A stretch of DNA of 64,000 nt, taken from assembly GCF_004361855.1 (NCBI RefSeq), contig NZ_SNWQ01000019.1:1-64000 (forward strand), given 5' to 3'. Both the position numbers and the translations under genes were made by a program. The DNA is from Kribbella caucasensis. GTDB lineage: Bacteria > Actinomycetota > Actinomycetes > Propionibacteriales > Kribbellaceae. Positions 7,857 to 37,226 of the stretch are shown here, piece by piece; positions within the stretch are counted from its first letter, which is position 1; every line of letters starts with the position of its first letter. The notes beneath the pieces are model-generated. The model was not told where the DNA came from. It did no database searches and saw only the letters and a list, made by a program, of their open reading frames with translations.

Positions 7857-9308
7857 TCAGGTGATGAGGGTGAAGAGGGTGCTGGGGAGGACGGAGACGA
7901 CTATCGCCGCGGCGGTGTAGGCGCTGATGACGGTTACGGCGGGGGTTTCTATGTCGACCGAGAAGGGGGCTTCGGCGGGGAGGCGGAAGAGTTCGGCGAT
8001 CCAGCGGAGGTAGACAGCCAAGCCGATCATGACGTTGACGGCCATGATGACGGCGAGCCAGAGGAGGTCGGCGTCGATGACCGACTGGAAGGCGGCGAAC
8101 TTGGTGAAGAGGCCGGCCAAGCCTGGGGGTAGGCCGGCCAGGACCACCAGGAAGAAGATCAGGGCAGCGGCCAGGCCTGGTTCGGAGCGGATCATGCCTC
8201 GGTAGTCGGTGAGGAGGCCTGCCGGGCGGTGGCGTTGGACCACGGCGACCGCACCGAAGGCGCCGAGCGTTACGACGACGTAGGCGGCGAGGTAGCCGAC
8301 GACCGCTTGGGCATCGCCTACCGCCAGGGGTGCAAGGAGGAAGCCGACCTGGCCGATGGAGGACCAAGCGAGGAGGCGGACCGCTTCGCCTTGGCGGAGG
8401 GCAGCGAGGTTCCCGACGGTCATGGTGACGGCGGCCAGGATCGCGACGACCGTCCGGAGCTCCGAACCGCTGGGGGCCACGCCGAAGGTGACGAGGACCA
8501 GGAGCCCGGCCACGCCGGCCGACTTGGAGACGACGGCGAGGAAGGCGGTGACCTCGACCGGCGCACCGGCGTACGTGTCGGGGAGCCAGCCGTGGAACGG
8601 GACGGCCGCGATCTTGAAGCCGAAGCCGACGATCACGAACAGGCCGGCCGCGAACGCCACCCGGCGCAGGTCCGGGTCGATCCCCGGGAGTTGCGTCGCG
8701 ATCGTCTGCAGGTAAAGCGAGCCGGTCACGCCGTAGAGGTAGGAGATGCCGAACAGCATCACGGCCGTCGACAGGACGGAGACGAGGAACGCCTTGAGCG
8801 CGGCTTCGGAACCGCGGCGGTCGCGGCGCAGGGCAACCATCGCGAAGCTCGGCAGCGACACCACCTCGAGGGCGATCACGATTGTCGCAAGGTCGCGCGC
8901 ACCGGCCAGCACGGTCGCGCCGGTGAGCGCGCTGAGCAGCAGGAAGTGGTACTCGCCGACCGGGATCTCGCGATCGAGCAACCCGTACGTCGAGAGGCCG
9001 ACGACGCCGAGTCCGCCGATCAACAGGACGGCCCACAACCCGACGGTGAGGGGTTCGAAGACGATGCTGCACTCGGCCGGTGCTTCGACTGCGGCGCGGC
9101 AGAATCCGGGTCGGACCGAGTTGCGCTGCGTCACCAGGAACGCGAAGCCGAACAGGATCGCGCCAGCGGTGACCAGCGTGACGCAAAGGTGTTTGAGCTG
9201 ACGGCTACCGGCGCCCCAGAAACCGTCGACGAGCAGCGCGGCCACGGCACCCAGCGCGAGCACCAGTGGTACCGCGATCGCTTGCCAGTCGGTCCAGGTG
9301 ATCGTCAT
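7857..9308 (-). CDS. nuoN2: NADH-quinone oxidoreductase subunit N, second set
   Basis: 483 residues of antiporter-like membrane subunit, one of the three proton-pumping subunits of complex I. The conserved glutamate in IALEVVSLPSFAM and the lysine in GFGFKIAAVPFHGWLPDTYA are present, as are later conserved stretches (WSSIGQVGFLL). The ATG at 9308 lies in an ATGA overlap with the nuoM2 stop, which settles the start. It is the last gene of the block I-J-K-L-M-N. It is shorter than the main-operon NuoN (531 residues) and clearly divergent from it, so it is not a recent duplicate. Confidence 0.92.
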   Translation of the reverse strand: MTITWTDWQAIAVPLVLALGAVAALLVDGFWGAGSRQLKHLCVTLVTAGAILFGFAFLVTQRNSVRPGFCRAAVEAPAECSIVFEPLTVGLWAVLLIGGLGVVGLSTYGLLDREIPVGEYHFLLLSALTGATVLAGARDLATIVIALEVVSLPSFAMVALRRDRRGSEAALKAFLVSVLSTAVMLFGISYLYGVTGSLYLQTIATQLPGIDPDLRRVAFAAGLFVIVGFGFKIAAVPFHGWLPDTYAGAPVEVTAFLAVVSKSAGVAGLLVLVTFGVAPSGSELRTVVAILAAVTMTVGNLAALRQGEAVRLLAWSSIGQVGFLLAPLAVGDAQAVVGYLAAYVVVTLGAFGAVAVVQRHRPAGLLTDYRGMIRSEPGLAAALIFFLVVLAGLPPGLAGLFTKFAAFQSVIDADLLWLAVIMAVNVMIGLAVYLRWIAELFRLPAEAPFSVDIETPAVTVISAYTAAAIVVSVLPSTLFTLIT

Positions 9309-10849
9309 ACGAAGTTCCAATAGTCGAGCAGGAGCCAGGGCGCGAGCCCGAGGACGACGGTCAGCGCCACCAGCGGCGTCCACGTGAGCAACTCGATCCG
9401 GCTCAGGTCGACGGCGAACGCGGTCGTCGGGTACTCGGCCGGGTCACCCTGGCACAGGTTGCGGATCAGCCGGAGGAAGTACGCCGCGGTCAGCACTGTC
9501 CCGAGACCCGCGATCACCATGAACACCAGGAAGGTTGTCCGAGGCAACGAGTCGGCCGGGCGGTAGGCGCCGAGCAGGGCGAGCATCTCACCCCAGAACC
9601 CGGCCAGCCCGGGCAGCCCGAGCGAGGCGAGGCTGGCGAAGACGAGCAGTCCGCTGATCCGTGGCAGCCGGGCGTTCAGCGCGCGGCCGATCGTGCGCAG
9701 ATCGCTGGTGTCGTGCCGGTCCTTGATCGCGCCGGCCAGGAAGAACAGCAGACCGGTGATCAGCCCGTGCGCGATGTTCGCGAACAGCGCCCCGCTCAGG
9801 CCCTCCGGCGACATCGTCGCGATCCCGAGCCCGATGAACCCCATGTGCCCGACGCTCGAGTACGCGATCAGCCGCTTCACGTCGGTCTGCGCGAAACACG
9901 CCAGCGATCCGGCGATGATCGCGACCGTGGAGAAGCCGCCCAGATAGGGCGCGATGGTGGTCGTCGCCTCGGGCAGCACCGGCAACAGGATCCGGATCAG
10001 GCCGTAACTGCCGAGCTTGAGCAATAGGCCGGCCAGCAGGACCGACCCGACCGTCGGCGCCTTCGCATGCGCATCGGGCAACCAGATGTGCAGCGGCCAG
10101 AGCGGCATCTTCACGGCCAGGCCGAGCGCGACCAGGATCGCCGCCGCGAGTGGTACGCCGCGTCCGCCCGCCACCGGGTTGTTGCCGAGCACCTCGAGAT
10201 CGAACGTCCCTGCCTGCCGGTGGATCAGCAGGAAGCCGAGCAACATCACGGCCGAACCGAGCACCGTCATCAACACGAACGTGGTCGCCGCACGCCGTCG
10301 CCCGGCCGCGTCGTGCTCGTCACCCCAGATGTCGATGACGAGCCACATCGGGATCAGGACGACCTCGAAGAACAGGAAGAACAGCACCAGGTCGACGGCC
10401 GAGAACGTACCGATCACCCCGGTCTCGATCACCAGCAACAACGCGATCAGGGACCGGGTACGGCCGATCCGTGGGGTGATGCGAAGCGAGTACAGGCAGC
10501 AGAGGAAGACCAGCAACGCGGTGAGCATGATCAACGGGATCGAGATCGAGTCCACCGCGATGTGGAACCGCACATCCAACGGCGGGATCCACTCCAGATC
10601 GGTCTCCGCGAACGGGTACAGCTTGCCGGGCAGGGTCCTGGGCGCTGTCTCGAACCCAACAAGCGTCCCCGGTCCGTCGGCGGGCCGCAGATAGTCGATC
10701 CACAACCACACCGAACCGACCAGCACCAGCCCGGAAATCACTGAGCCCACAACGGCGGCCACCCGATCGGCGAACGACACCGGCAGCACCCACAGCACCA
10801 TCGCCGTCAGCGCCGGCACGGCCAGCAATGCGATCAGCAAAGTACTCAC
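9305..10849 (-). CDS. nuoM2: NADH-quinone oxidoreductase subunit M, second set
   Basis: 514 residues, a Mrp-antiporter-type membrane subunit of complex I. The conserved glutamate is in FFEVVLIPMWLVIDIWG and the key lysine in GLAVKMPLWPLHIWLPDAHA, both needed for proton transfer in studied homologues. ATGA overlaps join it to nuoL2 upstream and nuoN2 downstream. It contains all the usual conserved segments (AQTDVKRLIAYSSVGHMGF), so it looks functional. Compared with NuoM in the main operon (507 residues) it has a different N-terminal loop rich in prolines. Confidence 0.93.
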   Translation of the reverse strand: MSTLLIALLAVPALTAMVLWVLPVSFADRVAAVVGSVISGLVLVGSVWLWIDYLRPADGPGTLVGFETAPRTLPGKLYPFAETDLEWIPPLDVRFHIAVDSISIPLIMLTALLVFLCCLYSLRITPRIGRTRSLIALLLVIETGVIGTFSAVDLVLFFLFFEVVLIPMWLVIDIWGDEHDAAGRRRAATTFVLMTVLGSAVMLLGFLLIHRQAGTFDLEVLGNNPVAGGRGVPLAAAILVALGLAVKMPLWPLHIWLPDAHAKAPTVGSVLLAGLLLKLGSYGLIRILLPVLPEATTTIAPYLGGFSTVAIIAGSLACFAQTDVKRLIAYSSVGHMGFIGLGIATMSPEGLSGALFANIAHGLITGLLFFLAGAIKDRHDTSDLRTIGRALNARLPRISGLLVFASLASLGLPGLAGFWGEMLALLGAYRPADSLPRTTFLVFMVIAGLGTVLTAAYFLRLIRNLCQGDPAEYPTTAFAVDLSRIELLTWTPLVALTVVLGLAPWLLLDYWNFV

Positions 10850-12612
10850 GAGGCGATCACCCCCGCGAGGACAGCCAGCGCGACCACACCGATCACCGCA
10901 GCGGTCAGATACGTCTGCACATTCCCGGTCTGCAGCAACCGGAAGCCCTGCGAAGCCAACGTCCCCGCCCGCCCCGTGGCCCGCACATATCCCCCGATCA
11001 CATCCCGATCACCAAGCACCGCGAGCTTCGCGAACCACCGCACCGGAACGACGACCGCTCCCTGGTACGCCGCATCCAGGCCGAACTCGTGCTCCAGCAC
11101 AACCGGCCGCGGATCCGCCCCACGTTGCCACAACGAGTACGCCGGGAGCGCGCCGAACACCGCCAGCACGGTCGTCACCAGCGCAACGCCCCAGTGGACA
11201 TGCACCCCATCGGCATACCCGAGCCCGGCCGCACCGATCGCCAGCAGCACCAGCGGCCCGAGCATCAACCAGGACGGCTCGCGGAGCTTGGACGTGTCCG
11301 GCTCATCGACATCCGCCATCGGGTCGTCATCCTCGAACGCGCCGAGCGCCCCGGCCAGTGCGGGCGTCCGGAAGAACGTCCACAACCACAAGCGCACGCA
11401 ATAGAACGCGGTCAACGCCGCCGTCAGGCAGACCGAGACCAGCACGACCCAGCCAATGGTCGACCCGTCTCGCGCGTGGTGCCAGGCCGCCTCGACCACC
11501 GAGTCCTTGGAGAAGAACCCGGCCAGCCCCGGCACGCCGGCCAGCGCACCGAGGCCGATCGTCATCGTGACGAAGGTGACCGGCATCGCCCGGCGGAGGG
11601 CACCGCGTCGGGTGTAGCGACGGAGTACGACGAAGGCGGCACTGCCGACCTGGTGCAGCAGCACACCGGCACAGAGGAACAGCAACGCCTTGAAGGACGC
11701 ATGCGTGACGAGGTGGAACAACGCGGCGTGCCGACCGTCTTCTGTCCCGAGCGAGAGACCGGCGAACATGATCGCCAACTGGCTCACCGTCGACCACGCG
11801 AGCACCCGCTTGACCTCGACGGCCGCCATCGCACAGAGCGCGGAGACCAGCATCGTCACGCACGCGACCACCGCGAGCACGGTGAGGGTCGCCTCGGCCT
11901 CGACGAACACGTCGTACAGGCGGGCGATCAGGAAGACGCCGGCGGCAACCATGGTCGCCGCGTGGATCAGGGCGCTGACCGGGCTCGGACCGGGCATCGC
12001 GTCGGGGAGCCAGGTCTGCAACGGGACCTGGGCGGACTTGCCGACCACGCCGACCAGCAGCAGCACCGTCCCGGCCGTCAATGCACCGGGCGAGATCGGG
12101 CCGGAGCCCAGCTCGGAGATGCGGAACGTGTTGTAGCCGATGCCGAGGACGAAGATGCCGAACAGGAACCCGACGTCGGCGAACCTGGTCATCAGGAACG
12201 CCTTCATCGCACCGGAGCGGGCGTCACGGCGCTCCCAATAGTGCCCGATCAGCAAGTACGAGCAGACGCCCATCACCTCCCAGCCGATCAGCAACAGGAA
12301 CAGGCTGTCCGCGACGACAACCGTGACCATGGCCGCGGTGAAGAGGGTGACGAGCGCCGTGTACGACGCGGCGCGCTCGTGCAGGTAGCCGATCGAGTAG
12401 ACCTGGACGCAGGCGGAGACGACGCCGACCACGGCCAGCAGCAGCACGGTCAGGTCGTCGGTTCGCAGGTCGAAGGTCCAGAACACGTCGGGGCCGACAC
12501 CCGTGCCGGGAAAGCTGGTCTGCTGAGGCTCGACACCGGACAGCAGGATGGCCGCCAGGATCACCAGCAGGGAGAAGCCGACGCCGACCACGCGCCACGT
12601 CGTCGCGATCAC
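10846..12612 (-). CDS. nuoL2: NADH-quinone oxidoreductase subunit L, second set
   Basis: 588 residues, the most distal proton-pumping subunit, whose C-terminal lateral helix normally clamps the membrane arm. The conserved glutamate is in IGWEVMGVCSYLLIG and the lysine in [35 protein letters not shown] follows. The C-terminal region after about residue 480 carries the expected amphipathic part and a last membrane segment. The start ATG at 12612 overlaps the nuoK2 stop by four bases. Compared with NuoL1 (623 residues) it lacks some N-terminal sequence, but the functional core is complete. Confidence 0.93.
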   Translation of the reverse strand: MIATTWRVVGVGFSLLVILAAILLSGVEPQQTSFPGTGVGPDVFWTFDLRTDDLTVLLLAVVGVVSACVQVYSIGYLHERAASYTALVTLFTAAMVTVVVADSLFLLLIGWEVMGVCSYLLIGHYWERRDARSGAMKAFLMTRFADVGFLFGIFVLGIGYNTFRISELGSGPISPGALTAGTVLLLVGVVGKSAQVPLQTWLPDAMPGPSPVSALIHAATMVAAGVFLIARLYDVFVEAEATLTVLAVVACVTMLVSALCAMAAVEVKRVLAWSTVSQLAIMFAGLSLGTEDGRHAALFHLVTHASFKALLFLCAGVLLHQVGSAAFVVLRRYTRRGALRRAMPVTFVTMTIGLGALAGVPGLAGFFSKDSVVEAAWHHARDGSTIGWVVLVSVCLTAALTAFYCVRLWLWTFFRTPALAGALGAFEDDDPMADVDEPDTSKLREPSWLMLGPLVLLAIGAAGLGYADGVHVHWGVALVTTVLAVFGALPAYSLWQRGADPRPVVLEHEFGLDAAYQGAVVVPVRWFAKLAVLGDRDVIGGYVRATGRAGTLASQGFRLLQTGNVQTYLTAAVIGVVALAVLAGVIAS

Positions 12613-12992
12613 GACGCCGCACCCTTCTCGACCGCGGTCCTCCCAGCGGCGGTGCCCGCCCCATCAGCCGCGGGGATCCCGCCGTCCTGCTCAACCAGGT
12701 CGCGGGCGGCGTCCGCATCCACATGACCGTGGCCGCGGAACAGCAGCAGCACGATCGCCAGCCCGAGGCCGATCTCGGCCGCGGCCAGCGTGATGACGAA
12801 CACCGCGAGCGTCTGCCCGGTGGCGAGTCCGTCCAGTCGCCAGGCGTCGAAGGCGACCAGGTTCAGGTTGACCGCGTTCAGCATCAGCTCGAAGGACATC
12901 AGCATGGTGATCGCGTTGCGCCGCGCCAGCACGCCGTACACGCCGAGGCAGAACAGCAGGACGGCCAGCAGCAACGGGAGAACCAGTGGCAT
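12609..12992 (-). CDS. nuoK2: NADH-quinone oxidoreductase subunit K, second set
   Basis: 127 residues with three membrane helices. The two conserved membrane glutamates are present, in MSFELMLNAVNLNLVAF and in LAAAEIGLGLAIVLLLF. NuoK is normally about 100 residues; this one has an extra C-terminal tail of about 30 polar residues (from VDADAARDLVEQDGG on) that the main-operon NuoK (99 residues) does not have. It starts one base after the nuoJ2 stop and overlaps nuoL2, so it is part of the same transcript. Confidence 0.92.
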   Translation of the reverse strand: MPLVLPLLLAVLLFCLGVYGVLARRNAITMLMSFELMLNAVNLNLVAFDAWRLDGLATGQTLAVFVITLAAAEIGLGLAIVLLLFRGHGHVDADAARDLVEQDGGIPAADGAGTAAGRTAVEKGAAS

Positions 12993-12993
12993 G

Positions 12994-13524
12994 TCAGTCC
13001 TCCTTCCCCGAGGAGGACAGCCTGTCAGAGCGCTCCGACAATTTCCTTTGGGACAAGACGATCGCGCCGATCAGGGCTGCCAGCAACAACACCGAGAGGA
13101 CCTCGAAGGGCAGCACCCAGATCCTGAAAACCGCGGTCCCGACATCGGTCGCCGACCCGGCCGGCACCGGTTCGATCTTCTCGTTGCCAAAGGCAATCAC
13201 CACTCCGGTGCCGAGGAGCAGCGCCAGCACCCCGGCGACGATCGCCGCGAACGGGCTCCGCCGGGTGGTCAGCGCCGGCAGCGGGTTGGTCGGTGCCTTG
13301 GTCAGCATCAGCGCGAACAGCACCAAGACCACGATCGCGCCCACGTAGACGAGGATCTGCACCAGCGCGACGAACTCGGCGTGCAGCGCGCCGAAGCAGC
13401 CTGCGACCGCGCCGAGCGCGACCACCAGCCAGAGCGCGGCGTGCACGATCCGGCGGGACGTGACGACGAGAACGGCCGCCGCGATCGCCACCGCCCCCGC
13501 GATGGAGAAGAGCGCAGTGGTCAC
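12994..13524 (-). CDS. nuoJ2: NADH-quinone oxidoreductase subunit J, second set
   Basis: 176 residues with about five membrane helices. The conserved segment [20 protein letters not shown], which includes the pi-bulge helix of complex I subunit J, is intact. The start is a GTG at 13524 that shares a GTGA with the end of nuoI2; the longer open frame upstream is antisense-like arginine-rich sequence and was rejected. It lacks the roughly 100-residue charged C-terminal extension of the main-operon NuoJ (281 residues). Confidence 0.92.
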
Positions 13525-14087
13525 TCGCCGCCCCCGGACTCGGGCCCCTCGCCAGCCCTCGGCGCCCCGTCGGACGGCGCTGCCCCGGCAGCTGGTCCCT
13601 CGACGGCCGGTGCCTCGATGACGGACGGGCCGGGGTCGATCGGCTGGGGTGCGGGGACGGTCCACATCCAGTCGCGCAGCCGGTCCTTCTCGTGGGTCAG
13701 GTTGCGGATGTCGGTCTCGGCGTACTCGAACTCGGGTGACCAGAACAGCGCGTCGAACGGGCAGGCCTCGATGCAGATCCCGCAGTACATGCAGAGCGAG
13801 AAGTCGATCGCGAACCGGTCCAGCACGTTGCGGCTGCGCTCTCGGGCCTGCTCACCGACCGACGGCGCGGTCTCGGTGTGCGAGTCGATGTAGATGCACC
13901 AGCTCGGGCACTCCCGGGCGCACAGCATGCAGGAGGTGCAGTTCTCCTCCAGCAACGCGATCACGCCCCGGCTGCGCGGCGGCAGCTCGGGCTGGACGTC
14001 CGGGTACTGCTCGGTGACGGCGCGGCGGGACAGCGTCTTCGCAGTGACTTTCAGGCCGTCGATCAGACCCTTGCCTGGTAGTGCCAC
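13521..14087 (-). CDS. nuoI2: NADH-quinone oxidoreductase subunit I (two [4Fe-4S]), second set
   Basis: 188 residues. Two ferredoxin-type cluster motifs are complete: cysteines 50, 53, 56 and 60 in [12 protein letters not shown] and 99, 102, 105 and 109 in [12 protein letters not shown]. They would carry electrons from the peripheral arm toward NuoB. The GTG start at 14087 follows GGGAGGAGGAGGC, one of the strongest ribosome sites in the window. The last 45 residues are Pro/Ala/Gly-rich (about residue 145 on). It opens the I-to-N block, so a promoter should lie in the 141 bp upstream; there are 11-bp direct repeats there (14201-14233). Confidence 0.93.
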
Positions 14088-14200
14088 GCCTCCTCCTCCC
14101 GTCCGGCGAACCGAGCCATCAAACAACAGAAACCCTGCAGGCTGACACTAACCGGTCCAGCCCCCTTACGGAGTCACCAGACGGCCGCAGTTCCCACTCG

Positions 14201-14233
14201 GTGCAGTGGAAATGCAGGGAGAGTGCAGTCAGA
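14201..14233. repeat. three 11-bp direct repeats upstream of nuoI2
   Basis: Three successive units GTGCAGTGGAA, ATGCAGGGAGA and GTGCAGTCAGA share TGCAG at exact 11-bp spacing. Direct repeats at one helical turn are the usual form of sites for OmpR/PhoB-type response regulators. They are 114-146 bp upstream of the nuoI2 start and overlap the last codons of the upstream gene. They could control the nuoI2-N2 block. Confidence 0.4.
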
Positions 14234-14987
14234 GTTCCGGTTCGAGCCGCGCCGCGACCTGTCGGTACCGGCTCACCGGGATCAGATGCACCCCGTCGAA
14301 GGCGCCGCTGTCCCGGATCCGGAGGACCTGCTCGCAGGCCGCCTCGACGCCCGCGTCCCGATCCCGCTCGACCGCCTCGACCAGCCGATCGGGGATGGCG
14401 AGCTGCGGCACGGACGCCAGGTTGTGGGCCATCTTCGCGCTCGCCAGCACCATCACCCCGGCGTACACCGGGATGTCCAGCGCGACGCTGTCCCGCCAGC
14501 GGAGCAGTTCGTCCACGTCGAAACTGACCTGCAGGTAAAGGAAGTCCGCCTCGGCCTTCCACCGCGGGACCCTGCCCAGCCGGGCGGTCGCGCCGACCTC
14601 GAACGGCCCGCAACCGGGGAAGCCGGTCGCCCGGGTCTCCTCGATCATCGTCCGGACCGTGAGCTGACTGGTCCGGCCGCCCTCGCGCGGGTCGTCGCCG
14701 TGCACGAACAGGAACTGCTCGACCCCGTACGCCGCGGCCGTGAGCAGGTCGCGGCGGAAGCCGAGCAGATTCCGGTCCCGTGAGTTGAGGCACGCGATCC
14801 CCCGGGCGCCCATCAGCTGCACCTCGTTGGCCACCGCGACGCTGGACACGGTGGCCCGGCCGATGTGGTTGTCCGGGATCAGGAACGCGTCCGCGATCGG
14901 GCTCATCACGCCGATCTGGTGCCGCACCTTCTTCAGATCCGGCCGCGTCGGCGGTTCCACCTCACAGATCACCTGAAACCCGGTCAC
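14229..14987 (-). CDS. methylenetetrahydrofolate reductase family protein
   Basis: 252 residues in a TIM-barrel fold of the MetF family: it begins with FQVICEVEPPTRPDL, where the glutamate matches the catalytic Glu of MTHFR, and continues with ADAFLIPDNHIGRATVSSVA, LNSRDRNLLGFRRDL and FLFVHGDDPREGG. MTHFR reduces 5,10-methylene-tetrahydrofolate with flavin. This short form may instead be a ferredoxin- or F420-linked or otherwise specialised relative. Standing between nuoH2 and nuoI2 on the same strand, it could use electrons from the same pool, though that is speculation. Its 3' end lies 141 bp before nuoI2. Confidence 0.75.
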   Translation of the reverse strand: MTGFQVICEVEPPTRPDLKKVRHQIGVMSPIADAFLIPDNHIGRATVSSVAVANEVQLMGARGIACLNSRDRNLLGFRRDLLTAAAYGVEQFLFVHGDDPREGGRTSQLTVRTMIEETRATGFPGCGPFEVGATARLGRVPRWKAEADFLYLQVSFDVDELLRWRDSVALDIPVYAGVMVLASAKMAHNLASVPQLAIPDRLVEAVERDRDAGVEAACEQVLRIRDSGAFDGVHLIPVSRYRQVAARLEPEL

Positions 14988-21539: not shown

Positions 21540-22759
21540 TGAACCCCGGACCACGCCAACCTGCGCAGTTGCGGCCGGCTCGGTTGTGGCCGGGAGATGT
21601 GGTGAAGGTAGGGGCGGTCGGGTTGCGGACCCGGCCGACCCGGGCGTTCCTGTCGGCGCTGGGGATCGCGATCGGGATCGCCGCGATGGTGGCCGTGGTC
21701 GGGATCTCGTCATCGTCGCGGGCCGAGCTGGACAACACCCTCGATGCCCTCGGCACCAATCTGCTGACCGTCGAACCCGGTACGACGCTGACCGGCGAGG
21801 AGGCGCAACTCCCGCTCGCCGCCGAGTCGATGGTCGGCCGGATCGGGCCGGTCCGGGCGCACTCCGCGATCGGCCGGGTGGACGGCGCGAACGTCTACCG
21901 CAGCGACAAGATCCCCGCGATCGAGACCAACGGCATCGTCCCGTACGCCGCTCGCACGGATCTGCTGAGCACCATCGGCGGCGTGATCCGCAGCGGCAAA
22001 TGGCTCGACGCTGCGACCAGCCGGTACCCCGCGGCGGTGCTCGGCTCGGCGGCCGCCGAACGGCTCGGGATCAGCCGATCCAGTCCGGACACACAGGTGC
22101 TGATCGGTGACGAGTGGTTCACGGTGCTGGGCATCCTGGCCCCCGCGGCGCTGGCTCCGGAGCTCGACAGTGCGGTCCTGGTCGGCTGGCCCGCGGCCGA
22201 TTCCACCCTGGGCTTCGACGGGCATCCGACCAAGATCTACACGAGGTCGGCCGACGCGCAGGTCGAATCGGTCCGCGAGGTCCTTGGGGCGACGGCCAAT
22301 CCCGAATCCCCGAGCGAGGTCCAGGTGTCCCGTCCGTCCGACGCGTTGGCGGCGAAACAGGCCGCGGGCGAGGCGTTCACCGGATTGCTGCTCGGTCTCG
22401 GCGCGGTCGCCCTGCTCGTCGGCGGGGTCGGCGTCGCCAACATCATGGTGATCTCGGTGCTCGAACGCCGCGCCGAGATCGGGCTGCGGCGATCACTCGG
22501 CGCCACGCGTGGACAAGTGCGCACGCAGTTCCTCACCGAGTCGTTGCTGTTGTCGGCGCTCGGCGGAATAGGTGGTGCCGTCCTGGGGAGCGGCGTGACG
22601 ACGGCGTACGCGGCGTACCAGGGCTGGCTGACCGTGATCCCGGTCTGGTCTGTGGCCGGCGGGATCCTGGCGACGCTGGTGATCGGCGGACTGGCCGGGC
22701 TCTATCCGGCGATCCGCGCGTCCCGGCTCTCACCAACGGAGGCGCTTGCCACTCCTTAG
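21539..22759 (+). CDS. ABC transporter permease (MacB/FtsX family)
   Basis: 406 residues. One N-terminal membrane helix (AFLSALGIAIGIAAMVAVVG), a large extracytoplasmic MacB periplasmic-core-like domain, and three C-terminal helices in an FtsX domain (GVGVANIMVISVLERRAEIG, LRRSLGATRGQVRTQFLTES). The whole operon would move a hydrophobic or peptide substrate out of the membrane by mechanotransmission; the substrate is unknown. The last four bases overlap the 3' end of the convergent nuoH2. Confidence 0.92.
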   Translation: MNPGPRQPAQLRPARLWPGDVVKVGAVGLRTRPTRAFLSALGIAIGIAAMVAVVGISSSSRAELDNTLDALGTNLLTVEPGTTLTGEEAQLPLAAESMVGRIGPVRAHSAIGRVDGANVYRSDKIPAIETNGIVPYAARTDLLSTIGGVIRSGKWLDAATSRYPAAVLGSAAAERLGISRSSPDTQVLIGDEWFTVLGILAPAALAPELDSAVLVGWPAADSTLGFDGHPTKIYTRSADAQVESVREVLGATANPESPSEVQVSRPSDALAAKQAAGEAFTGLLLGLGAVALLVGGVGVANIMVISVLERRAEIGLRRSLGATRGQVRTQFLTESLLLSALGGIGGAVLGSGVTTAYAAYQGWLTVIPVWSVAGGILATLVIGGLAGLYPAIRASRLSPTEALATP

Positions 22760-23706
22760 CGGAACAACGTGACCCCGATGCCGGTGAGCGCGAGCTGCAG
22801 GAGCGCCACCGGCACGAGGCCCTGCCAGGCGAGCTTCTGCAACTGGTCGGCCCGCATCCGCGGAAACGCGACCCGGACCCAGATCACCACGAGCGAGACG
22901 GCCGCGATCTTCACGATCGACCACAACCAGCCGAGCTCATCCGGACCAGGCCCGCTCCACCCGCCGAGGAACAGCACGGTGGTGAGACCCGCGAGCACCA
23001 CGATCCCGGCGTACTCGGCGAGCAGGAACAGGGCGAACCGGAGGCCGGTGTACTCCGTGTACGGCCCGAAGATCACCTCCGAGTCGGCCACCGGCATGTC
23101 GAACGGCGGCCGCTGCAGCTCGGCCAGTCCGGCGATGAAGAACACCACCAGACCGGGCAGCTGCCAGAGCAACCACAACGGATTCCACTCGTCGACGATG
23201 CCGGTGAAGCTCAAGGTGCCCGCGGCAACCGCCACGCTCGCGGCCGACAACACGAACGGCAGCTCGTAGCTCATCAGCTGCGCGGCGACCCGCAGTCCAC
23301 CGAGCAGGCTGTACTTGTTGCCGCTCGCCCAGCCGGCCATCAGCGAACCCAGGACGCCGATGCTCATCACGGCGATCACGAAGAACAACCCCGAGTCCAG
23401 GTCGGCGCCGACGATCCCCGGGGCGAGCGGGATCGCGGCCAGCGCCGCCAGGTACGGCAGGATCGCGACCACCGGGGCCCACTCGAACACCCGCTTGTCG
23501 GCGGCCGCCGGCGTGACGCTCTCCTTCTGAACGAACTTCACCCCGTCGGCGACGAGTTGCGCCCAGCCGTGGAAGGCGCCGGCGTACATCGGCCCGAGTC
23601 GCGACTGCATGTGGGCCATCACCTTGTGCTCGGCCTGACCGACCAGCAGCGGCGCGACCAGGAACGCGACCAGCACGCCGACGACCCGCAGTACGAACTC
23701 GACCAT
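22756..23706 (-). CDS. nuoH2: NADH-quinone oxidoreductase subunit H, second set
   Basis: 316 residues, the membrane subunit that shapes the quinone chamber with NuoB and NuoD. The motif RLGPMYAGAFHGWAQLVADG and VKFVQKES (residues 36-62) match NuoH. The loop after PPFDMP differs from usual: the main-operon NuoH has PEAEGEL, whereas here it is PVADSEV, with V206 and D208 in place of two glutamates and E210 kept. It is also much shorter than NuoH1 (436 residues), lacking its C-terminal extension. It is a single-gene block, split from nuoI2 by about 8.7 kb and from nuoC2 by 1.4 kb. Confidence 0.92.
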   Translation of the reverse strand: MVEFVLRVVGVLVAFLVAPLLVGQAEHKVMAHMQSRLGPMYAGAFHGWAQLVADGVKFVQKESVTPAAADKRVFEWAPVVAILPYLAALAAIPLAPGIVGADLDSGLFFVIAVMSIGVLGSLMAGWASGNKYSLLGGLRVAAQLMSYELPFVLSAASVAVAAGTLSFTGIVDEWNPLWLLWQLPGLVVFFIAGLAELQRPPFDMPVADSEVIFGPYTEYTGLRFALFLLAEYAGIVVLAGLTTVLFLGGWSGPGPDELGWLWSIVKIAAVSLVVIWVRVAFPRMRADQLQKLAWQGLVPVALLQLALTGIGVTLFR

Positions 23707-23729
23707 GACGGCACCTTACCGACTCCGGC

Positions 23730-23755
23730 TTGACCTCAACCTCTGTTCAGGTCAA
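23730..23755. promoter_or_regulatory. near-perfect 26-bp dyad upstream of the NmrA-type gene and nuoH2
   Basis: TTGACCTCAAC and GTTCAGGTCAA are inverted copies with one mismatch in 11, around the spacer CTCT. The sequence has the look of MerR/SoxR-family operators, in which a dyad fills the stretch after a TTGACC -35 box. It is in the 99 bp shared by the divergent nuoH2 and NmrA-type genes. No MerR gene is in the window. Confidence 0.55.
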
Positions 23756-23805
23756 AGGCTTTGTTGGACACGGGGACAACAGAAGACGATGGTGAGGGAG
23801 TTGGG

Positions 23806-24978
23806 ATGATTCTGGTGACCGGAGCTACCGGGAAGGTCGGCCGGCAGGTGGTCGCGGGTCTGCTCGAGGCGGGCGCCGAAGTACGGGCGCTGGTGCGGCA
23901 ACCGCTGCTGTCGGGGCTGCCCGCTGCCGTCGAGCTGGTGCAGGGCGACATCAACGATCCAGCCGCCGTACGACGAGCCGCCGCGGGGGTTGATGCCGCC
24001 TTCCTGCTCTGGCCGTCCTTCAGCTCGGAGGGCGCGGCGCCGATCGTGTCAGCTCTGGTCGAGGAGGTACGGCGGGTTGTGTACCTGTCCGCGTTGGTCC
24101 CTGCGGGTGTGTGGGGTGAGGTGGAGGAACTGCTCACGTCCAAGGGCGCCGCGACGACGTTCCTTCGCGCCGGCGGGTTCGCGGCCAACACGCTCGGATG
24201 GGCGCCGGCGTTCCGTACGGGTGACGTCATCCGGATCCCGTCGCCGAAGGCCGGTCGCTCGCTCATCCACGAACGCGATATCGCCGACGTCGCCGTACTG
24301 TCGTTACTGGACGAGGTACACGTCGGCAAGGCGTACGAGCTGACCGGGCCGGAGGTGCTCACGCAGGAGGAGCAGGTCGCGGTGATCGGCTCCGTCATCG
24401 GCAAGCCGCTCCGGGTCGAGGAGGAGACGCCCGACGAGGCCCGCGCCGCGATGCTCGCGATGGGAGCCGACGAGACCCTGGCCAACGCATCCGTCTCCTA
24501 CTGGGCCTCGCTCGTCGACAATCCCGAACCCGTGATCACCACAGTCGCCGACCTGACCGGTCACCCCGCCCGCACCTTCCGCGAGTGGGTCAAAGACCAT
24601 GCATCGGAGTTCCGCGTCCTGTCGACCGCCGAGGTTGCTGAGGAGTTCGTGACCGCCTTCCGTACCGGCGACTTCTCCCGCGCAACCAAGCTCGAGGCTC
24701 CCGACGTGACCCGCGTGGCGCCTCTCGAGTACGACGGCGAACTGGTCGGCCACGAAGCCATCCTCACCAACGCCGCCCGCACCCTCGAGGGCCACACGAT
24801 CACAGCCGTCGACATCCCCGACCCACTCCTGTCGGCAGACCAGTTCGGCGTCCGCTTCACCTTCCAATACGCCGAAACCGACGCCCTCACCACGAAGTTC
24901 TCCCTCTACACCGTCACCACCGGCCAAATCACCCGAGAGGAAGTCTTCTACTTCACCCCACCAACCCCGCAGGGCTGA
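23806..24978 (+). CDS. NmrA-type NAD(P)-binding protein with SnoaL-like C-terminal domain
   Basis: 390 residues. The Rossmann start MILVTGATGKVGRQVVAGL and the course of the first 270 residues (VRQPLLSGLPAAVELVQGDI, VYLSALVPAGVW) fit NmrA/SDR-a proteins that sense or reduce with NAD(P)H. From about 275 a second domain, STAEVAEEFVTAFRTGDFSR to the end, resembles SnoaL/NTF2-like folds. The ATG at 23806 follows GGTGAGGGAGTT. It lies on the opposite strand between nuoC2 and nuoH2, exactly where nuoD stands in a canonical operon. A strong MerR-like dyad precedes it. Confidence 0.82.
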   Translation: MILVTGATGKVGRQVVAGLLEAGAEVRALVRQPLLSGLPAAVELVQGDINDPAAVRRAAAGVDAAFLLWPSFSSEGAAPIVSALVEEVRRVVYLSALVPAGVWGEVEELLTSKGAATTFLRAGGFAANTLGWAPAFRTGDVIRIPSPKAGRSLIHERDIADVAVLSLLDEVHVGKAYELTGPEVLTQEEQVAVIGSVIGKPLRVEEETPDEARAAMLAMGADETLANASVSYWASLVDNPEPVITTVADLTGHPARTFREWVKDHASEFRVLSTAEVAEEFVTAFRTGDFSRATKLEAPDVTRVAPLEYDGELVGHEAILTNAARTLEGHTITAVDIPDPLLSADQFGVRFTFQYAETDALTTKFSLYTVTTGQITREEVFYFTPPTPQG

Positions 24979-25046
24979 TCTACGTGTACCGGGGGCGGCC
25001 GCCGATGGGTGACGAGGGGTTCGGACGTCCGCGTGGACGGGCAATC

Positions 25047-25123
25047 GGGACCTCGGACAAGAAGTGGGGAGCTCGGTCACGTTATTTCTTGTTCACGGTC
25101 CCGGTTTCTTGTTCACGGTCCCG
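25047..25123. repeat. dispersed hairpin repeat between convergent genes (copy A)
   Basis: CGGGACCTCGGACAAGAA at 25047-25063 region pairs with TTCTTGTTCACGGTCCCG at 25086-25103, 15 of 18 positions matching, and the right arm is repeated once more at 25106-25123, giving a 20-bp tandem. The same arms (GAACAAGAA, GGGACC and their complements) build the hairpin at 53942-54002. Both copies lie between two gene 3' ends, here 7 bp from the nuoC2 stop, so a bidirectional terminator is likely. Confidence 0.6.
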
Positions 25124-25129
25124 CGAATG

Positions 25130-26092
25130 TCAGGCCCGATCCTCTGGGTCAGCGGGCGGCGCGTCGGCGGGTGGGTTGGGCGCGGCGGGTGGGTTGGACG
25201 CGGCGGGTGGGTTGGGCTCGGCCGGTGGGGTGGGCTCGGCCGGTGCCTCGGTTGCTGGGCGCGCGGTCTGCGGAGCGTCGGTTGGCGGGGACGCGGGCGG
25301 GGACGATGCGTCGGATGGTGGGGTGGGGGCGGCCGAGGGGGTTGGAGGTGGGGCCTCGGCCGTGGTGGGTGGGGTTTCGGCCGTGGTGGTTGGGGTTTCG
25401 GCCGTGGTGGTTTGGGGGCGGGGGCGGCGTTCGGTGGGGGTTCGGCGGGGGCGGGCGGGGGCTGCTGCGGCCGCGGCGGCCGGAGCCAGGGGGTCGGGGT
25501 CTGGGGTGCCGGGTGGGCGGGGGCCCCAGGTTTCGGGGTCGGGGACGCCGGGGGGCAGGGTGCGGCGGCGGGAGGGGGCGCCGGAGCGGGCGGCTGGGGC
25601 GTGGTCGGATTCGCCTGGTTCCTTGGCGCCGGGCCACGGTTTGGCTACTCGGGAGGCGAGGATGAACTCCTTGCGGAGCGGGTTGCCTTCGAAGCCGTCG
25701 GGAAGCAGCAGCGGGATCAGGTTCGGGTGGTCGTCGAAGGTGATGCCGAACATCTCGAAGGTCTCGCGCTCGTGCCAGTTCGCGCCCGCGTAGACCCCCG
25801 AGAGCGTCGCCAGCCGGGCCGGGGTCCGCGGGATCAGGGTGCGGACCAGGACATGCTCGACATGCGCGCCACCCCAGAAGTCGGCCAGGTGCGTGACCAC
25901 CCGGAACCCGTCGGTCAGCTCGTCGCTCGCGGTCAGGAAGTCGAAGAAGATCAGGCCGACGTCGTCCCGGAGTACCTCGTGCGCCGCGACCCACGACTCC
26001 GCCGGTACGTCGATCGCGACCGGGCCGAAGCTGTCCGTCGAGGTCGCGGTGATCCCGGCCTCGGTGAGGGCCGAGAGCATGTGGTCGCTCAC
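25130..26092 (-). CDS. nuoC2: NADH-quinone oxidoreductase subunit C, second set, with Pro/Ala/Thr-rich tail
   Basis: 320 residues. The first 180 are a NuoC (30-kDa) domain: [20 protein letters not shown], then [20 protein letters not shown] and [11 protein letters not shown], which carries the family signature. After about residue 190 comes a tail of some 130 residues of Pro, Ala, Thr and Glu with short repeats (TTTAETP, NPPAAP), absent from normal NuoC. The start GTG at 26092 shares a GTGA with nuoB2. The tail does not resemble NuoD, so this is not a NuoCD fusion. NuoC normally binds NuoD, which is missing from this set in the window. Confidence 0.9.
25162..25251. repeat. 18-bp tandem repeat inside nuoC2
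   Basis: About five units of 18 bp related to CGCGGCGGGTGGGTTGGG and CTCGGCCGGTGGGGTGGG (plus strand), coding on the minus strand for Pro/Ala-rich hexapeptides such as NPPAAP and TPPAEP. Boundaries are approximate. The strong G bias on the plus strand extends to about 25560. Confidence 0.6.
25353..25415. repeat. three 21-bp tandem repeats inside nuoC2
   Basis: Three units, each like GTTTCGGCCGTGGTGGTTGGG on the plus strand with few changes, encode on the minus strand the heptapeptide series around TTTAETP. The low divergence suggests recent slippage-type expansion in the tail region. Confidence 0.6.
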
Positions 26093-26673
26093 CGCGGCTC
26101 CACCGGACCAGGGGTCACAGCGGGCTGCACGAGTCCGCGGGTCAGGGCTTGCGCGGACGGCTCGTATCGGGTGGTGACGTCCTCGCCGGCGATCTTCTCC
26201 TGCAACTTGAGGATCCCCTGCAGCAACGCCTCCGGCCGGGGCGGGCAGCCGGGCACGTAGACGTCCACCGGGATGATCTGGTCGACGCCCTTCGTCACGC
26301 AGTACGAGTCCCAGTACGGACCGCCCGAATTGGAGCAGGAACCGAACGAGATGACGTACTTCGGCTCCGGCATTTGCTCGTACAGCCGCTTGATCGCCGG
26401 TGCCATCTTGTCCGTCACAGTGCCCGACACCACCATCAGGTCGGCCTGCCGCGGCCCGGGCGCGAACGGGATCACGCCGAGCCGGATGAAGTCGTGCCGG
26501 CCCATCGACGCCGCGATGAACTCGATCGCGCAGCAGGCGAGCCCGAAGTTGAACACCCAGAGCGAGTACTTGCGGCCCCAATTCAGCAGGTACCGCACCG
26601 GCTCGGGCGCGAGCTTCGCCAGCCCGCCCACAGCCGGCCGCACCGTCGGCATCGGCAGATGCACATCAGCCAT
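26089..26673 (-). CDS. nuoB2: NADH-quinone oxidoreductase subunit B (cluster N2), second set
   Basis: 194 residues. All four ligands of the terminal [4Fe-4S] cluster N2 are present: Cys47 and Cys48 in LACCAIEF, the cysteine in [11 protein letters not shown] and the one in [11 protein letters not shown]. This subunit passes electrons to quinone together with NuoD. It starts four bases after the stop of the epoxide hydrolase-like gene on the same strand, so it is probably read from that gene's transcript. Its C-terminal 40 residues are an unconserved Pro-rich tail. Confidence 0.94.
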
Positions 26674-36869: not shown

Positions 36870-37226
36870 TCAGGTCCAGGTGAGGATTTTTTTGCGCCAG
36901 GCGTAGAGGAGGCCTACGGTTACGAAGCCGAGGAAGATGAACATCTCGATCAGGGACGAGACGCCGACCGTGGCGAAGATGGTGGCCCAGGGGAAGAGGT
37001 AGACGGCGTCGACGGCGAAGATGACGTACAGGTAGGCGTACAGGTAATAGCGGATGTGGAGTTGCGCCCAGCCTTCGCCGACCGGGTCGACGCCGGACTC
37101 GTACGTCTTCAGCTTCTCCGGGGTCGGGTGCGTGATCGTGAGGGCCCGGTTCAGGGCGAACGCGCCGATCAGGCCGCCGAGGGCGAGCACCACCAGGACG
37201 GCGACGACTCCGTAGGCCTCGGACAT
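36870..37226 (-). CDS. nuoA2: NADH-quinone oxidoreductase subunit A, second set
   Basis: 118 residues with three membrane helices. YESGVDPVGEGWAQLHIRYY and VYLFPWATIF identify NuoA. Two features are unusual: serine replaces the common cysteine in the YECG motif, and the membrane motif FDVE is FAVD here (A71 and D73), losing one conserved acidic residue and swapping the other. In E. coli the corresponding Asp and Glu matter for assembly or activity. It is a one-gene block about 10 kb from nuoB2, 26 bp downstream of a lipoprotein gene on the same strand. Confidence 0.92.
   Translation of the reverse strand: MSEAYGVVAVLVVLALGGLIGAFALNRALTITHPTPEKLKTYESGVDPVGEGWAQLHIRYYLYAYLYVIFAVDAVYLFPWATIFATVGVSSLIEMFIFLGFVTVGLLYAWRKKILTWT

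Follow-up and report, generated by a model that had tools for sequence, protein, structure and literature searches.

The stretch of Kribbella DNA analyzed here (the window: 64,000 nucleotides, positions 1-64000 of contig C19 of genome G000) carries a second set of complex I genes, called nuo2 below, from which nuoD is missing. The original prediction stated that the interval between nuoC and nuoH, where nuo operons carry nuoD, is filled in this cluster by an opposite-strand NmrA-type gene, and that the second enzyme needs a NuoD from elsewhere, probably either from a distant gene or from the main-operon copy. Two questions follow: how did the nuoD slot come to be empty, and which NuoD does the second enzyme use?

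The interval between nuoC2 and nuoH2

The ten genes of the second cluster other than nuoD2 are present in the window, all on the minus strand. The nuoA2 gene (36870-37226) was identified as an ORF and by its sequence, and tblastn finds its orthologues in relatives, whose nuo2 clusters are compact; nuoB2 (26089-26673) matches PF01058. The genome's second copies of PF00329 and PF00146 are nuoC2 (25130-26092) and nuoH2 (22756-23706), respectively. The ORFs nuoI2 (13521-14126), nuoJ2 (12994-13665, start uncertain), nuoK2 (12609-12992) and nuoN2 (7857-9383, start uncertain) have orthologues in relatives' nuo2 clusters, and the same comparison supports nuoL2 (10846-12612; NCBIfam NuoL models) and nuoM2 (9305-10849; TIGR01972, NDH_I_M). 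In Kribbella this set is split into separate pieces by inserts, including the NmrA-type gene. A methylenetetrahydrofolate-reductase-like gene (PF02219, window positions 14229-14987) directly adjoins nuoI2, as it does in three Kribbella loci (L086, L087 and L088); it occurs in no nuo2 cluster read outside the genus.

No nuoD is concealed in this arrangement. A PF00346 (NuoD) profile search of the window, the gap between nuoC2 and nuoH2 included, returned no match, in agreement with the original prediction, and a concealed nuoD, whether between these two genes or anywhere else in the window, was rejected. A NuoCD fusion was likewise rejected, as had been predicted, since NuoC2 carries the 30-kDa domain (PF00329, residues 27-147) alone, followed by a Pro/Ala-rich C-terminal tail; its GTG start overlaps the nuoB2 stop. 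The lone gene in the interval is on the plus strand (23806-24978) and encodes an NmrA-type NAD(P)-binding protein (PF05368, 2e-18). The NmrA half of its predicted NmrA/SnoaL identity therefore stands, but its SnoaL_2 match falls below the Pfam cut-off. The dyad that had been assigned to this gene is present at 23730-23755 (TTGACCT-N12-AGGTCAA) and is a possible promoter or operator. A supposed hairpin repeat between this gene and nuoC2, however, appears to be a 19-nt tandem direct repeat in two copies (TTTCTTGTTCACGGTCCCG, 25085-25123), and the sole inverted repeat found nearby falls within the NmrA gene.

Comparison with relatives reveals how the slot came to look as it does. The NmrA gene lies at the nuoC2/nuoH2 junction in 11 of the 12 Kribbella loci examined, with a match of only 29 residues in the other (L025), whereas none occurs in nuo2 of 16 genomes from other families of the order. 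In these 16 the cluster is compact, with the order A2-B2-C2-H2-I2-J2-K2-L2-M2-N2; nuoC2 sits beside nuoH2, no NuoD is encoded within nuo2, and nuoD2 is always elsewhere, with pan/nad genes on one side and folate genes on the other. As a result, the slot must have been empty before the NmrA gene arrived, and the gap was not formed by loss of nuoD in this lineage. We conclude that the NmrA gene is a later insertion within Kribbella that is unrelated to complex I, and not an occupant of a former nuoD position as originally supposed.

A second nuoD encoded elsewhere

The original prediction proposed a genome-wide search for a second nuoD, whose discovery would indicate relocation and not loss. When we searched the genome with the PF00346 profile, two nuoD genes were found. 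The first, nuoD1, is a full-length gene of the main operon at C19:67535, 3.5 kb past the window end. The second, nuoD2, is an orphan on another contig (PF00346 match at C1:31597-32352), and so nuoD of the second set has been displaced rather than lost. The second complex I set of this genome includes A2-C2 and H2-N2 in the window and D2 on contig C1.

The nuoD2 ORF (P0001; L006:9058-10356, with a probable true start at 9152, MSTERVV...) encodes a full-length NuoD. It carries the Complex1_49kDa domain (PF00346, 238 bits) and aligns over residues 61-432 with cyanobacterial NdhH and mitochondrial NDUFS2 (phmmer). The NCBIfam NuoD models divide, with a score above the cut-off for NF004739 (373 bits against 360) and below it for TIGR01962 (375.8 bits against 459). 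The histidine of the beta1-beta2 loop and the HRGxE motif are present, and both the histidine and HRG-E are invariant in nuo2-bearing genomes. Identity to the main NuoD of the same genome is about 40% over the conserved part, which indicates that nuoD2 is not a recent copy.

The gene stands alone among genes for pantothenate and NAD (panC, nadB, nadC, coaX) and for folate (folK, folB, folP, folE, ftsH), as named from sequence and context, and the same surroundings recur in, for example, Streptosporangiaceae, Aeromicrobium, Streptomyces and Pedococcus. The D2 loci read contain no nuo2 gene closer than ~8 kb to nuoD2, and the distance from nuoD2 to nuoH2 is 87-288 kb in the 18 genomes for which it was computed, with both genes on one contig. 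The orphan is found in 38 of 38 Kribbella genomes, the same 38 that carry nuoH2, and across the class Actinomycetes, all families read have nuoD2 as an orphan. This last observation led us to reject a recent relocation in Kribbella; judged from such sequence distributions, the displacement is old.

Several other observations concern nuoD2 and additional homologs in the genus. A near-perfect palindrome of ~100 nt (L006:9010-9110; folding energy about -73 kcal/mol) lies just upstream of nuoD2 on contig C1. Related copies accompany nuoD2 in four other Kribbella loci (L008, L014, L015 and L066), and weak matches to residues 1-33 of the NuoD2 query suggest many dispersed copies. In the single-contig genome G017, nuoD2 (L066:7985-9278) is in two frames, split near residue 350, which may reflect a sequencing error, a programmed shift or a real break. 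Six Kribbella genomes (G011, G012, G016, G018, G026 and G034) carry a further nuoH elsewhere, ~39-42% identical to nuoH2, and G016 also has an additional main-type nuoD. In five others (G014, G020, G021, G029 and G032), NuoD-like and NuoH-like proteins of low identity (28-29%) are encoded within a few kb of each other and may belong to complexes of the group-4 hydrogenase type.

Probable membership of NuoD2 in the second enzyme

We consider it highly probable (roughly 85%) that nuoD2, encoded apart near a PF02636 gene, is the second complex I's own NuoD; this, taken as a whole, is the best explanation of the locus. Three lines of evidence bear on this reading.

First, the residues beside Fe-S cluster N2 distinguish the two NuoD proteins. 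In Yarrowia this cluster has the HRG-motif arginine of NuoD next to it and NuoB has threonine, whereas in Thermus NuoD has threonine and Arg83 of NuoB fills the same space, an arrangement termed an 'intersubunit residue switch' (PMC8042128). Loss of the N2-side arginine abolishes cluster N2 in Yarrowia. We tabulated the NuoD residues before checking NuoB, and the check could thus have gone against the predicted pairing of arginine with threonine. NuoD2 has arginine in 95 of 95 sequences, and NuoB2 has threonine at the Nqo6-R83 position in 22 of 22; the window's own copy has this threonine. The main-operon proteins have the opposite setting: NuoD1 lacks the HRG arginine and has threonine (21/21), and NuoB1 has arginine (20/20; a row assigned to B1, L287, in fact represents the B2 region of genome G286). 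NuoD2 would accordingly be expected to pair with NuoB2 through this switch.

A further difference was unexpected. The tyrosine of NuoD that binds the quinone headgroup has been described as strictly conserved (PMC8119997). It is tyrosine in 21 of 21 NuoD1 sequences, but the equivalent position is tryptophan (Trp131) in 95 of 95 NuoD2 sequences. This residue is a feature of the catalytic site and does not decide whether a protein is a NuoD subunit.

Second, nuoD2 and nuoH2 largely occur together. In a sample of 197 genomes of the order, D2 orthologues (E up to 1e-195) and H2 orthologues (E up to 1e-138) each occur in 54 genomes, and the two sets are identical. In the class, leaving the window's own genome aside, 374 genomes were compared: 88 carry the two genes together, four have a strong D2 only and two have H2 only, although these counts are uncorrected for phylogeny. 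The two H2-only genomes are MAGs that are 72% and 80% complete.

Third, a methyltransferase gene (PF02636, Methyltransf_28; 55.5 bits against a cut-off of 23.3; COG1565-like) is located near nuoD2. The two genes are no more than 15 kb apart in all 107 genomes that have both on one contig, and the methyltransferase is present in 115 of the 117 D2-bearing genomes of the class, including those that lack nuoH2. We take PF02636 to be the family of NDUFAF7/MidA, and the Kribbella protein, which resembles NDUFAF7 at the family level, is a candidate counterpart. In humans, NDUFAF7 dimethylates the HRG arginine of NDUFS2, Arg85 (PMC3829151). By analogy, we infer that the actinomycete enzyme would dimethylate Arg108 in the HRG motif of NuoD2 during assembly. 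On this model, NuoD2 made from its distant locus would join the second complex I, whose cluster encodes A2-C2 and H2-N2, and the NmrA protein would have no part in the enzyme.

The association with nuo2 is not strict, which leads to an extension of the preferred reading. Genomes of the class without a close nuoH2 include about 25 with a diverged nuoD2 (50-69% identity), nearly all of which have the methyltransferase, and four whose nuoD2 is well conserved. Checks with PF00146 and PF00346 found that most genomes with nuoD2 and without nuoH2 carry just one full-length nuoH, along with a main nuoD of their own. Such genomes contradict a strict tie between nuoD2 and nuo2, and suggest that NuoD2 functions, or once functioned, outside nuo2 as well. 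The nuoH2-less loci include L118-L129 and L063-L065, mostly with a PF02636 gene nearby. NuoD2 might supply the second complex and also act together with the methyltransferase in some other, possibly older, process, such as one involving a different Fe-S or quinone protein, and might keep its own locus for this reason. The near-universal pairing of the two genes favors this proposal, as does the finding that the HRG, HDW and MH residues of NuoD2 are invariant in the nuoH2-less group while many otherwise invariant residues have changed, several of them clustered near 175-196. However, no partner gene was identified beside D2 in these genomes, and D2 may merely outlive the loss of nuo2. We regard this additional role as possible, but as the less likely state of affairs.

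The persistence of nuoD2 and the methyltransferase without nuoH2 could also be read to mean that nuoD2 does something else entirely and that NuoD1, which is present and full length, serves both complexes, as the original prediction had allowed. We consider this quite improbable. Threonine in NuoD1 combined with threonine in NuoB2 would leave no arginine beside N2, making NuoD1 an unlikely supplier, and every nuoH2-bearing genome of the class carries nuoD2 save the two incomplete MAGs. Of the two sources of NuoD originally proposed, the evidence favors the distant gene and disfavors the main-operon copy.

Finally, the idea that nuoD was lost, leaving a decaying or D-less cluster with the NmrA protein standing in for NuoD, is scarcely credible, although most Kribbella loci read do have the NmrA gene precisely between C2 and H2. 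That gene is of an unrelated family and runs on the opposite strand; its absence from the relatives' nuo2 and its short match in L025 led us to reject it as a functional replacement. The other nuo2 genes are all open (with nuoH2 88-93% identical across the genus), and an intact nuoD2 gene already contradicts a D-less enzyme.

Relation to known complex I systems

If nuoD2 is the second enzyme's NuoD, these bacteria hold two NuoB/NuoD pairs side by side with opposite settings of the arginine switch, only one of which has the methylation target and a methylase gene nearby, together with a natural Tyr-to-Trp change at a quinone position thought to be strictly conserved. A broader proposal, which we advance tentatively and rate at somewhat less than even odds, is that actinomycetes widely possess a second complex I in which the NuoD tyrosine is fixed as tryptophan and a dedicated methylase of the NDUFAF7 type, encoded nearby, matures the N2-side arginine. 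One cell would then contain both versions of the switch and two chemically different quinone sites, and the second enzyme might differ in its quinone chemistry or its electron donor. Tractable, non-pathogenic strains with both pairs would allow gene removal to show what arginine dimethylation and the quinone tyrosine contribute.

The puzzle of the missing subunit is itself ordinary, because a separately encoded nuoD2 is already known in Streptomyces. As described in passages of two accounts (PMC3765725; PMC8388888), the second Streptomyces set (nuoA2, B2, D2, H2-N2) lacks the N-module, none of which adjoins the Kribbella set either, and its genes are contiguous except for nuoD2, which lies apart; a presumed Streptomyces genome (G214) has the same arrangement. 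Kribbella nuo2 differs in being broken up by inserted genes. Those passages of the Streptomyces accounts (PMC3765725; PMC8388888) report the separate nuoD2 without mention of a methyltransferase partner, a residue switch or a Tyr-to-Trp change, and we found no prior report in the open-access papers searched of the NuoD/NuoB switch in these bacteria, of the methylase association or of the Tyr-to-Trp change.

The second Kribbella set also resembles the 11-subunit complex-I-like enzymes that lack NuoEFG, as in Desulfitobacterium (PMC11238625), in comprising A-D and H-N with no adjacent N-module. In Desulfitobacterium, however, nuoD resides within the operon nuoABCDHIJKLMN (PMC11238625), whereas in Kribbella it is a distant orphan. 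The closest parallel for the predicted modification is the NDUFAF7/MidA system acting on Arg85 of NDUFS2 (PMC3829151), with which the Kribbella genes share the methyltransferase family and an arginine in the HRG motif of the 49-kDa/NuoD subunit. Unlike that system, the two Kribbella genes lie close together, only one of two NuoD copies has the arginine, and its methylation is a prediction.
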